From: Minisyncoccota bacterium
GTDB taxonomy: Bacteria; Patescibacteriota; Minisyncoccia; UBA6257; 2-01-FULL-56-20
Length of the DNA stretch: 46,255 nucleotides
NCBI GenBank assembly: GCA_025449695.1
Contig: JANWIW010000018.1
Location: 1-46,255, forward strand
Direction of reading: 5' to 3'
Shown: piece by piece, positions 3,058 to 5,376 of the stretch
Layout: each line of letters begins with the position of its first letter
How positions within the stretch are numbered: position 1 is the first letter of the stretch
Position numbers and translations under genes: made by a program
The notes under the pieces: model-generated
Databases searched by the model: none
What the model was told of the DNA's origin: nothing
The model's input: the letters and a program-made list of their open reading frames with translations, nothing else

Positions 3058-4314
3058 CTAGAGATTTGGTGTTCCTTGGGGCAGGGCGCAGAACTCGCCC
3101 CACAAGTCCGGAGCGAAGAACCGTTCCGCTACATCCCTCAGATACGAGGTGTCGCGGCAGCGTTCCAGATGGGTGCGGTACTCGGCCTCGCTCCTGATCT
3201 CCCCATAGAGCTCGAGGTCGTACTCCGCGCCGTCGATGATGGATTCAAGGGTCTGGAAGTAGAACGTCTGCGCGCCCAGTTTCCGGCCGACCTCTCGCCC
3301 CACCAGTGCCTCCGAGGAAAGCGCTTGCTCCATTCTTTCCCACAGTTCCTGACGGACCGACTGTACCTGGTCCAGTTCGTGCAGGGGAAAGGACATGGTC
3401 CAGCTGGAGTACCGTTCGAAGACCGTCTTAAAGGACATGCCGTACACCCAGCCCTTCTCGGTGCGGAGCCAGTGATAGAGCGGGCCGTGGTCGGAATTGG
3501 TGAGGAAGTCGCCGATGAACTCGATGGCCACTTTGGTTCCGTAATCCGGCAGGGCGGGGAAGAGCGCGCCTACATAAAGGATGGGCTGGGACACGTCGTT
3601 GAAGGCTTTTTCGTGATAGTCTTTGTGGACCCAGAACGGCGTTTCATAATGAGCGGGGGCCTCGTGCGGCCTCGTTTCGAGCTCCATGAGCCGCCCGGAC
3701 ATCTTTTGGATGTCGAGCGGACCAGCAGTCAGGATCACCGTGCGCGGATCGGAGTAGTAGGAATGAAACTTGGAGAGCATCGCCGCGTCCATGGCCGCCA
3801 AGTCCTCGTTCCAGCCGAAGATCTGCCGCAGATCGGTCACGAGGTCGCTCTGCCATTGCGTCTTCAGGTAATGGCCGAGCTCGGAAGAGCCGGGGAACCA
3901 GCGCTCTTTGCGTTTGCGTTCGGCGGCAATGATGGTGCGCTGGCGGGCGATATCCTCGCCCTGGAAGAGCGGCTCGAACACCTGCGCGCAGAGGCCGTCC
4001 CAGGTCTTCTCAATCGCGTCCGCGGGCGTCTCCGCGAGATAGATGGTGGTGAAGCTGCCGGTCTGGGCGTTCATATAGCCCCCCTGGACCCCCAGCCACT
4101 CCGTGAACTCGTGGGTGCGGGGATACAGGGCGGAGTGGGATGCGCCCATGTGCTCCAGGAAGTGCGCCGTGCCGGGCAGGACGTCGCCCGTGTTCTGGGC
4201 GTGCCCGAAGGGCAGGATGATATGCATGATGGCGAAAGGGAAGTCCGCAGGATAGTGCAGGAACTTTATCCCGTTCGGCAGGATGTAGGTCTCAAAGACC
4301 TGGCGGTCGCGCAT
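3058..4314 (-). CDS. M16-family zinc metallopeptidase (insulinase/processing-peptidase type)
   Basis: The 418-aa protein has the inverted zinc motif HxxEH at residues 51-55 (HFLEH) and a candidate third ligand Glu132 in AAERKRKE, at the spacing typical of M16 (HxxEH-x76-E). It has one catalytic N-terminal half and a C-terminal M16-like half, the usual size for a single-chain bacterial member. No signal peptide is visible, so it is probably cytoplasmic. Substrate unknown. A TAGGAT box (4321-4326 on the minus strand) lies 6 nt before the ATG. A long plus-strand frame over this gene is only an antisense shadow. Confidence 0.88.
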   Translation of the reverse strand: MRDRQVFETYILPNGIKFLHYPADFPFAIMHIILPFGHAQNTGDVLPGTAHFLEHMGASHSALYPRTHEFTEWLGVQGGYMNAQTGSFTTIYLAETPADAIEKTWDGLCAQVFEPLFQGEDIARQRTIIAAERKRKERWFPGSSELGHYLKTQWQSDLVTDLRQIFGWNEDLAAMDAAMLSKFHSYYSDPRTVILTAGPLDIQKMSGRLMELETRPHEAPAHYETPFWVHKDYHEKAFNDVSQPILYVGALFPALPDYGTKVAIEFIGDFLTNSDHGPLYHWLRTEKGWVYGMSFKTVFERYSSWTMSFPLHELDQVQSVRQELWERMEQALSSEALVGREVGRKLGAQTFYFQTLESIIDGAEYDLELYGEIRSEAEYRTHLERCRDTSYLRDVAERFFAPDLWGEFCALPQGTPNL

Positions 4315-4371: not shown

Positions 4372-5058
4372 ATGCCGGTCGCAAGATATTTCCGCAAAGA
4401 CTTCTTTGATACATGGACCCCGGAGATGGCATACATCCTCGGTTTCATGTTCGCGGACGGGGCAGTATGGCGCGGGAAGAGGGGAAATTGGTTTTTCGCT
4501 TTTTACTCCAATGACCTGGAGATCATAAAAACCATAAAATCCGTCCTGGAATCGGAGCATAAAATAGGGGTTAAAAGGCGGTCAAGCGAAGAGCATCCCA
4601 ACTGGCGGACCGGTTATTTGCTTCAGATTGGGAGTAGGATGTTATGCCAAAGATTGGCTACCCTTGGCGTTACGCAGAATAAAAGTCTGACGATGACCTT
4701 TCCGATCGTACCTCTCGAACTAATCGGTGATTTTACCCGGGGGTATTTTGACGGCGATGGCAGTGTGAACTTCGGGAGGTATTGGCGCAAAGACCGTAAC
4801 CAATGGAAATATCAACTTACGGTCAACTTTACTTCAGGTAGCAAAGCGTTCTTGGAAGGATTGTTTCACGCTGTTCGTAGTTACACGAACGGCGGCAGGA
4901 TTGGCATTAAAAAACGAGGATACGAACTCGTATTCGGCCGCCATGATTCGGTTGCATTATATAGGTTAATGTATAATAATGTCCCCGCGGGACTTTTTCT
5001 GAATCGCAAACTTGCGATCTTTCGGAGAGCGTTCCAAAAACTTCATCTGCGGCCGTAG
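4372..5058 (+). CDS. LAGLIDADG homing endonuclease overlapping tRNA-Asp
   Basis: A 228-aa protein with two LAGLIDADG motifs, LGFMFADG at residues 23-30 and RGYFDGDGSV at 123-132. This is the monomeric two-motif arrangement, and both carry the catalytic acidic residue. Such proteins make site-specific DNA breaks that drive intron homing; some act as maturases. It is AT-richer than its neighbours, a sign of mobility. It does not lie inside the group I intron of the following tRNA but directly upstream of that tRNA. Its last codons CGG-CCG-TAG are nucleotides 2-10 of tRNA-Asp. Start ATG 4372 is likely but not certain; in-frame GTG 4339 and 4348 are alternatives. TATACT lies directly before the ATG. 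Confidence 0.9.
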   Translation: MPVARYFRKDFFDTWTPEMAYILGFMFADGAVWRGKRGNWFFAFYSNDLEIIKTIKSVLESEHKIGVKRRSSEEHPNWRTGYLLQIGSRMLCQRLATLGVTQNKSLTMTFPIVPLELIGDFTRGYFDGDGSVNFGRYWRKDRNQWKYQLTVNFTSGSKAFLEGLFHAVRSYTNGGRIGIKKRGYELVFGRHDSVALYRLMYNNVPAGLFLNRKLAIFRRAFQKLHLRP

Positions 5059-5332
5059 CTCAATTTGGTTAGAGCACCGCCCTGTAGATAACCCTGCAGC
5101 TCCGAAAAGAAATTTTCGGATGAACATTCCGGGATAACGGTGAAGGCTAAGTTCGAAAGAATACGCTAATACCGTGGGAACCTCAGGATCGCGCGATCCG
5201 AGGAGCGCCGTAGAGACTAGATACCGGAGCGCCTAAGTTCGCGAGAATAAGGCGAAGATATAGTCCACTCCTTTATGAAAGTAGAGGATAAGTGCACGGC
5301 GGGGGTTGCCGGTTCAAGTCCGGTCGGCCGCG
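5049..5332 (+). tRNA. tRNA-Asp(GTC) interrupted by a group I intron
   Basis: 5' exon 5049-5085 and 3' exon 5295-5332 join to a 75-nt cloverleaf. Acceptor GCGGCCG/CGGCCGC, D stem GCTC/GAGC, anticodon stem CCGCC/GGCGG, loop CTGTCAC with anticodon GTC, T stem GCCGG/CCGGT, discriminator G. CCA is not encoded. The intron lies between positions 35 and 36 in the anticodon. The first 10 nt are also the end of the LAGLIDADG gene. A perfect terminator hairpin follows at 5341. Confidence 0.93.
5086..5294 (+). ncRNA. Group I intron in the tRNA-Asp anticodon loop, 209 nt
   Basis: Core elements are visible. P1: exon CTGT (5082-5085) pairs with GCAG (5096-5099), giving the required U-G pair at the splice site. 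P2: TCCGAAAA/TTTTCGGA. P4: ACGGT/ACCGT. R element GACTAGA (5215-5221) and S element AAGATATAGTCC (5255-5266) form P7 (GACTA/TAGTC). P8: CGCCT/AGGCG. The last intron base is G5294. The intron contains no ORF. Self-splicing is inferred from these motifs. Confidence 0.9.
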
Positions 5333-5340
5333 CTGAGGGG

Positions 5341-5376
5341 AAGATCCCGGAAGCTTTTGCTTCCGGGATCTTCTTT
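5341..5376 (+). terminator. Terminator of the tRNA-Asp unit
   Basis: Perfect 14-bp stem AAGATCCCGGAAGC with a TTTT loop, followed by CTTTG. Confidence 0.75.

Follow-up and report, generated by a model that had tools for sequence, protein, structure and literature searches.

A tRNA-Asp(GUC) gene in the window (the whole stretch of 46,255 nucleotides analysed, contig JANWIW010000018.1 of a Minisyncoccota bacterium) was found to be interrupted within its anticodon by a group I intron, which is almost certainly self-splicing. A LAGLIDADG homing-endonuclease gene stands outside the intron, directly 5' of the tRNA gene, and its stop codon lies inside the tRNA. Our analysis of relatives makes it quite likely that the self-splicing intron and the external endonuclease work in a manner resembling collaborative homing. 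The features of the locus are as follows:

243-2354, + strand: ligA (NAD-dependent DNA ligase), whose place upstream of the tRNA-Asp locus is conserved in the family (Pfam; synteny in relatives)
4372-5058, + strand: LAGLIDADG homing-endonuclease gene, 228 aa, with two LAGLIDADG motifs (PF14528, 2DCH profile match, intact relatives)
5049-5085, + strand: 5' exon of tRNA-Asp(GUC), ending CCGCC CUGU at the splice site, last base U35 (ARAGORN -i, spliced exons, intronless relatives)
5082-5099, + strand: P1, exon CUGU (5082-5085) paired with the IGS GCAG (5096-5099), the splice-site pair being U35-G (sequence; no change in GCAG among 16 aligned introns)
5086-5294, + strand: group I intron, 209 nt, between tRNA positions 35 and 36 (ARAGORN -i, RF00028, covariation)
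5101-5120, + strand: P2 hairpin (5101-5108 with 5113-5120; compensatory changes in 7 of 8 pairs)
5127-5132, + strand: 5' strand of P3, partner 5224-5229 (compensatory changes in 4 of 6 pairs; 100% of cells paired)
5137-5175, + strand: P4 (5137-5141 with 5171-5175; invariant), with P5 inside (compensatory changes in 2 of 3 pairs)
5215-5219, + strand: 5' strand of P7, GACUA, partner UAGUC at 5261-5265, the guanosine-binding helix (invariant in 16 introns)
5230-5254, + strand: P8 (5230-5233 with 5251-5254; compensatory changes in 3 of 4 pairs; 100% paired)
5270-5287, + strand: P9 hairpin (5270-5276 with 5281-5287; compensatory changes in 6 of 7 pairs), with P9.0 alongside; omega-G at 5294
5295-5332, + strand: 3' exon of tRNA-Asp, from C36 to G73 (G73 = 5332), CCA not encoded (ARAGORN -i, sequence)

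ARAGORN -i called a tRNA-Asp(gtc) at [5049,5333], its intron 209 nt long; once spliced, the exons gave a normal tRNA-Asp fold with C38 and G73. Default ARAGORN and RF00005 both missed the gene at 5049-5332. The group I model RF00028 matched 5076-5287 when an E-value threshold was used (45.1 bits, E 2.7e-10); this score falls under the Rfam gathering score of 50, so that the default scan was silent. Default tRNA and Rfam scans are thus blind to the interrupted gene, and such genomes appear to be without a tRNA-Asp. A sequence-only reading of the same DNA had proposed a group I intron at 5086-5294 in a tRNA-Asp, between anticodon bases 35 and 36, with a U-G splice pair in P1 and a terminal G, and had suggested a search with group I covariance models. 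That search returned the RF00028 match under the gathering score, and together with ARAGORN -i and the covariation it bears out the intron. The host was confirmed by ARAGORN -i and by the spliced exons, the position proved exact, and the splice pair and the terminal G both hold, GCAG and the final G being present in 16/16 aligned introns.

P1, P2, P3, P4, P6, P7, P8, P9 and P9.0 were all found in the intron, and the group I core (P3-P9), with its interleaved P3 and P7, is conserved. For covariation, 16 same-site introns from other genomes were aligned and a fixed group I structure was scored. Standard pairs made up 93.2% of the pair cells, double compensatory changes appeared in 27 of 47 pairs, and the covariation score was 0.491, against 0.183 when shuffled and at most 0.160 with the partners slid. 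The score was 0.541 against 0.188 when shuffled for 45 introns, whose alignment was fitted to the model. Covariation was found in P2, P3, P5, P6a, P8 and P9; P4, P6 and P7 were invariant in the 16 introns, which is consistent with the fold and lends it no covariation support. The fold also stood apart from dinucleotide shuffles (z -3.7). Other origins of the signal were considered as well: another intron type was ruled out because the group I core covaries, a chance fold by the shuffles and the covariation, and an assembly artefact by the recurrence of intron and endonuclease in many independent assemblies. The size of the intron and its type of host would fit subgroup IC3 of tRNA group I introns.

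The same intron ends, CUGU before the intron and G as its last base, were seen in 22 spliced Asp loci and in Asp, Asn and Tyr hosts within the order. Structure and conservation make it nearly certain that the intron splices by the group I mechanism. A bound guanosine would attack after U35, at the U-G pair of P1. The 3'-OH of the exon would then attack after the omega-G, and U35 would be joined to C36, restoring the anticodon.

The 244 genomes of the order were searched with a covariance model built for the window intron (R1). All 27 of the classified strong matches were in tRNAs with GUN anticodons and were inserted after U35; their hosts were 7 Asp, 18 Asn and 2 Tyr, one of the Tyr hosts being ambiguous with Asn. 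ARAGORN labelled several of the hosts tRNA-Thr, Ser, His or Tyr, and these labels were set aside, since explicit splicing at CUGU gives Asn, Tyr or Asp. In a named genome collection, tRNA-Asp genes with the same intron occurred in Liptonbacteria, Kaiserbacteria, Zambryskibacteria, Yanofskybacteria, Nomurabacteria, Harrisonbacteria, Vogelbacteria and others, and every tRNA-Asp host there that was spliceable in silico showed the same insertion (exon CUGU, an intron ending in G, exon CAC). Three further loci (L184, L194, L201) hold introns at or near the same site, with ends outside the resolved set. The classic bacterial tRNA hosts are Leu(UAA), Arg(CCU), Ile(CAU) and fMet. The sequence-only reading had called tRNA-Asp an unusual host; this stands against the classic list but not within Patescibacteria, where Asp introns are common (about 25 of the 76 tRNA-Asp genes behind the endonuclease, among the best loci of the named collection).

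Contiguous exons nearly identical to those of the window were present at at least 10 intron-free loci, several of them in genomes of the same family, where the intron-free tRNA-Asp exons differ from the window's by one to a few bases. The empty site is therefore clear. On the intron tree the Asp introns clustered together, with two Asn introns and one Tyr intron among them, so that host switching between tRNAs looks rare.

Several other introns were observed along the way. An HNH-like ORF, its motif read by eye, lies inside at least three of the sibling Asn/Tyr introns, and L047, L048 and L062 are tRNA-Asn introns of the same family, about 520 nt long, with an HNH-like ORF between P1 and P2. 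A group I intron also interrupts a second tRNA of the window genome itself (G000:C36, L036: 688-962, - strand; RF00028 68.6 bits). Spliced after U33, this host reads as a tRNA-Phe(GAA), and an ORF of about 233 aa with no Pfam match is directly upstream of it, the same layout as at the tRNA-Asp locus. Two weak RF00028 matches (31.6 and 26.6 bits) with ORF-sized inserts were seen in G000:C13 (L037), where the host, by eye, is apparently a 23S rRNA gene.

The endonuclease gene beside the intron was absent from the sequence-only reading. Its product matched Pfam PF14528 (E 7.3e-10) and, by profile, the putative homing endonuclease 2DCH (E 9.9e-6), and its motifs GFMFADG and RGYFDGDG contain D29 and D129, which are invariant across five orthologues. 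Selection on the gene is purifying (pN 0.15 and pS 0.59 in the closest pair). LAGLIDADG_3 domains have been reported in rRNA insertions of CPR bacteria (PMC11270868). The window gene shares its last 10 nt with the tRNA, and its stop codon (TAG, 5056-5058) is made of tRNA nucleotides 8-10; four orthologues stop further in, at tRNA nucleotides 13-15, and 46 of 77 loci in the named collection stop at exactly one of these two offsets. Both TAGs fall on conserved tRNA bases, which indicates that the tRNA supplies the endonuclease stop. Cutting by RNase P at the 5' end of the tRNA would also take off that stop codon, and translation of the enzyme may then compete with maturation of the tRNA on one transcript, if RNase P cuts there.

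The gap between ligA and tRNA-Asp is 32-205 nt in relatives without the endonuclease and 688-753 nt in two relatives with it. As judged from this synteny, the endonuclease gene is an insertion between ligA and tRNA-Asp in the window's family. The window also carries, between ligA and the endonuclease, a pitrilysin/M16-like peptidase fragment (3058-4314, - strand; NCBIfam E 1.9e-14), unlike the relatives, in which ligA adjoins tRNA-Asp. Directly 3' of the tRNA, a perfect hairpin followed by a T-rich stretch (5341-5376) resembles a terminator, although it was not among the elements listed by the consensus scan. The consensus promoter scan of the window gave nothing convincing.

Searching for relatives with the single endonuclease sequence gave no match, whereas searching with an endonuclease alignment (A1) gave 406. 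About 100 matches were found in 72 of the 244 genomes of the order. Among 90 loci, a few of which are duplicate or second copies, 77 lay directly 5' of a same-strand tRNA (Asp, Cys, Leu-UAA, -GAG, -UAG, -CAG or Phe), eight lay directly 3' of tRNA-Leu(CAA), and the remaining five were without an assigned tRNA, two of them at contig edges. For example, a LAGLIDADG_3 endonuclease of the same family in the window genome (G000:C4:16968-17694, L072) ends beside an intronless tRNA-Leu(GAG). In the best 80 loci of the named collection, 78 abutted a tRNA (76 of them tRNA-Asp) and two were at contig ends; this set was ranked by likeness to the Asp-type enzymes, so that its mix of tRNAs is biased. The clades of the endonuclease tree track tRNA identity, with 15 label changes against 50.3 when shuffled. 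The open-access literature searched gave no description of a LAGLIDADG family tied to tRNA 5' ends. A wider interpretation, which we offer tentatively and with more doubt than belief, is that Patescibacteria harbour a large LAGLIDADG family fused to the 5' ends of essential tRNAs (Asp, Cys, several Leu, Phe), its stops often taken from conserved tRNA bases and each clade targeting its own tRNA. At tRNA-Asp, either the intron or a changed tRNA sequence would give the donor immunity; such a family would be a natural cut-and-replace drive acting on an essential RNA gene, with the intron as one antidote.

The sequence-only reading had held that splicing would be essential if this were the only tRNA-Asp gene, and had proposed to search the genome for another. 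The window genome (G000; 983 kb, 37 contigs, 92.7% complete) gave 42 RF00005 matches, none of them an ordinary tRNA-Asp. The one other GUC anticodon among them (C25:18897-18968) belongs to a tRNA in which A73 and A38 take the places of G73 and C38, and whose T loop has G55. G73 and C38 are identity elements of AspRS. An exact match to a canonical Asp pattern (CTGTCAC-N12-14-GGTTCRANTCC) was also sought in the 244 genomes of the order; it was intact in 177 of them and missing from all seven intron-bearing genomes, the window genome included. Since no second ordinary tRNA-Asp was found, the host gene is apparently the genome's only one and splicing is probably essential, as the earlier reading supposed, the main caveat being the missing ~7% of the genome. 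The existence of a second GUC tRNA would also be compatible with a dead tRNA gene at the window locus, the C25 tRNA reading the aspartate codons. However, the exons are intact and near-identical to those in relatives, the intron fold is conserved, and the C25 tRNA, besides the bases it has in place of G73 and C38 and its G55, had no close full-length match across 37 family members; we consider a dead gene hardly credible. A related odd tRNA-like gene (G000:C20:5436-5508, L165; anticodon GCC by eye), outside the RF00005 matches, is 77% like the C25 gene (L163).

With regard to mobility, an intact endonuclease ORF was directly 5' in six of the seven intron-bearing tRNA-Asp genes of the order, and the seventh (L042) had only a C-terminal remnant. 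About 17 of 160-177 intronless tRNA-Asp genes, among those listed, had the endonuclease. The co-occurrence gave a Fisher p of about 2e-5, a value that ignores shared ancestry and takes the intronless genes among those listed. It suggests that intron and endonuclease have spread as partners in the relatives, and we regard a partnership between the two as rather probable. The intron has no endonuclease of its own, and its mobility would most likely come from the upstream LAGLIDADG enzyme (4372-5058). The enzyme would recognise uninterrupted tRNA-Asp genes, repair from the donor would copy the endonuclease, the 5' exon and the intron together, and the intron would shield the donor's own tRNA gene from cutting. 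In the best loci of the named collection, the endonuclease accompanied an intronless tRNA-Asp in 51 of 80. Because such genes are many, the enzyme can do without the intron and the two are separable; those loci would call for some other form of immunity or a different target. By inspection, the anticodon stems of the endonuclease-bearing intronless tRNA-Asp genes showed no single avoided motif. The remnant at L042 shows in turn that the intron persists without the enzyme.

These separable occurrences are also what would be expected if the intron were a resident, vertically inherited element and the endonuclease an independent selfish gene homing to tRNA 5' ends, the shared locus being incidental. 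The endonuclease family is found 5' of intronless tRNA-Asp, -Cys, -Leu and -Phe as well. On the endonuclease tree, intron-bearing loci are spread and mixed with intronless ones and do not form one clade, and the intron was kept at L042 where the enzyme was lost. However, among tRNA-Asp genes the intron is strongly enriched at those with the endonuclease (6/7 plus the remnant, against about 10% of the intronless genes among those listed), and we consider an incidental association unlikely. That the upstream protein is mainly a maturase aiding the splicing of the intron seems very improbable to us. Homing endonucleases may double as maturases (PMC11270868), and one weak profile match was to 2ab5, a PDB entry named mRNA maturase; but about two thirds of the enzyme's relatives are beside intronless tRNAs, and the same-family Asn/Tyr introns manage without the enzyme, which was found upstream of 0/20 of them.

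The collaborative reading that we prefer has a known counterpart in F-CphI and the psbA intron of cyanophage S-PM2, for which cleavage and protection were shown (PMC6083498). In both cases a free-standing endonuclease gene adjoins an intron-containing gene, and the group I intron is without its own enzyme. However, in the window the intron interrupts a bacterial tRNA gene, the enzyme belongs to the LAGLIDADG type and has its stop inside the tRNA, its wider family occurs at many tRNA types without introns, and cleavage and protection are predicted. The window enzyme comes from the same phylum-level group as the LAGLIDADG enzymes of CPR rRNA insertions; those lie inside the insertions, whereas the window enzyme lies outside the intron, 5' of the tRNA (PMC11270868).

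Bacterial tRNA group I introns are about 200 nt long and lie in the anticodon loop, with a short P1 and a terminal G (PMC3984707, PMC8450103), and the window intron is like them in each of these respects. It is unlike the classic ones in its host, Asp, with siblings in Asn and Tyr, in its position at 35/36 of GUN anticodons, and in lacking an internal reading frame and having a LAGLIDADG gene outside it. CPR tRNA genes with insertions have been noted (PMC9698310), and a 2025 preprint by Nakagawa (doi 10.1101/2025.07.03.662931, cited in PMC12641178) has a title that points to a novel tRNA insertion site in Patescibacteria. Going by that title, the preprint shares with our case the phylum-level group, the tRNA hosts and a novel site, and it possibly concerns the same intron class. 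The intron alone is of a kind already known and has perhaps been described before. What looks new here is an endonuclease that lies outside the intron, ends within the tRNA and belongs to a tRNA-tracking family, an arrangement for which the open-access literature searched gave no description. For this bacterium, an apparently unique essential tRNA would have been made dependent on a ribozyme, and the association with an endonuclease may provide a testable account of the spread of small tRNA introns that lack their own enzyme.
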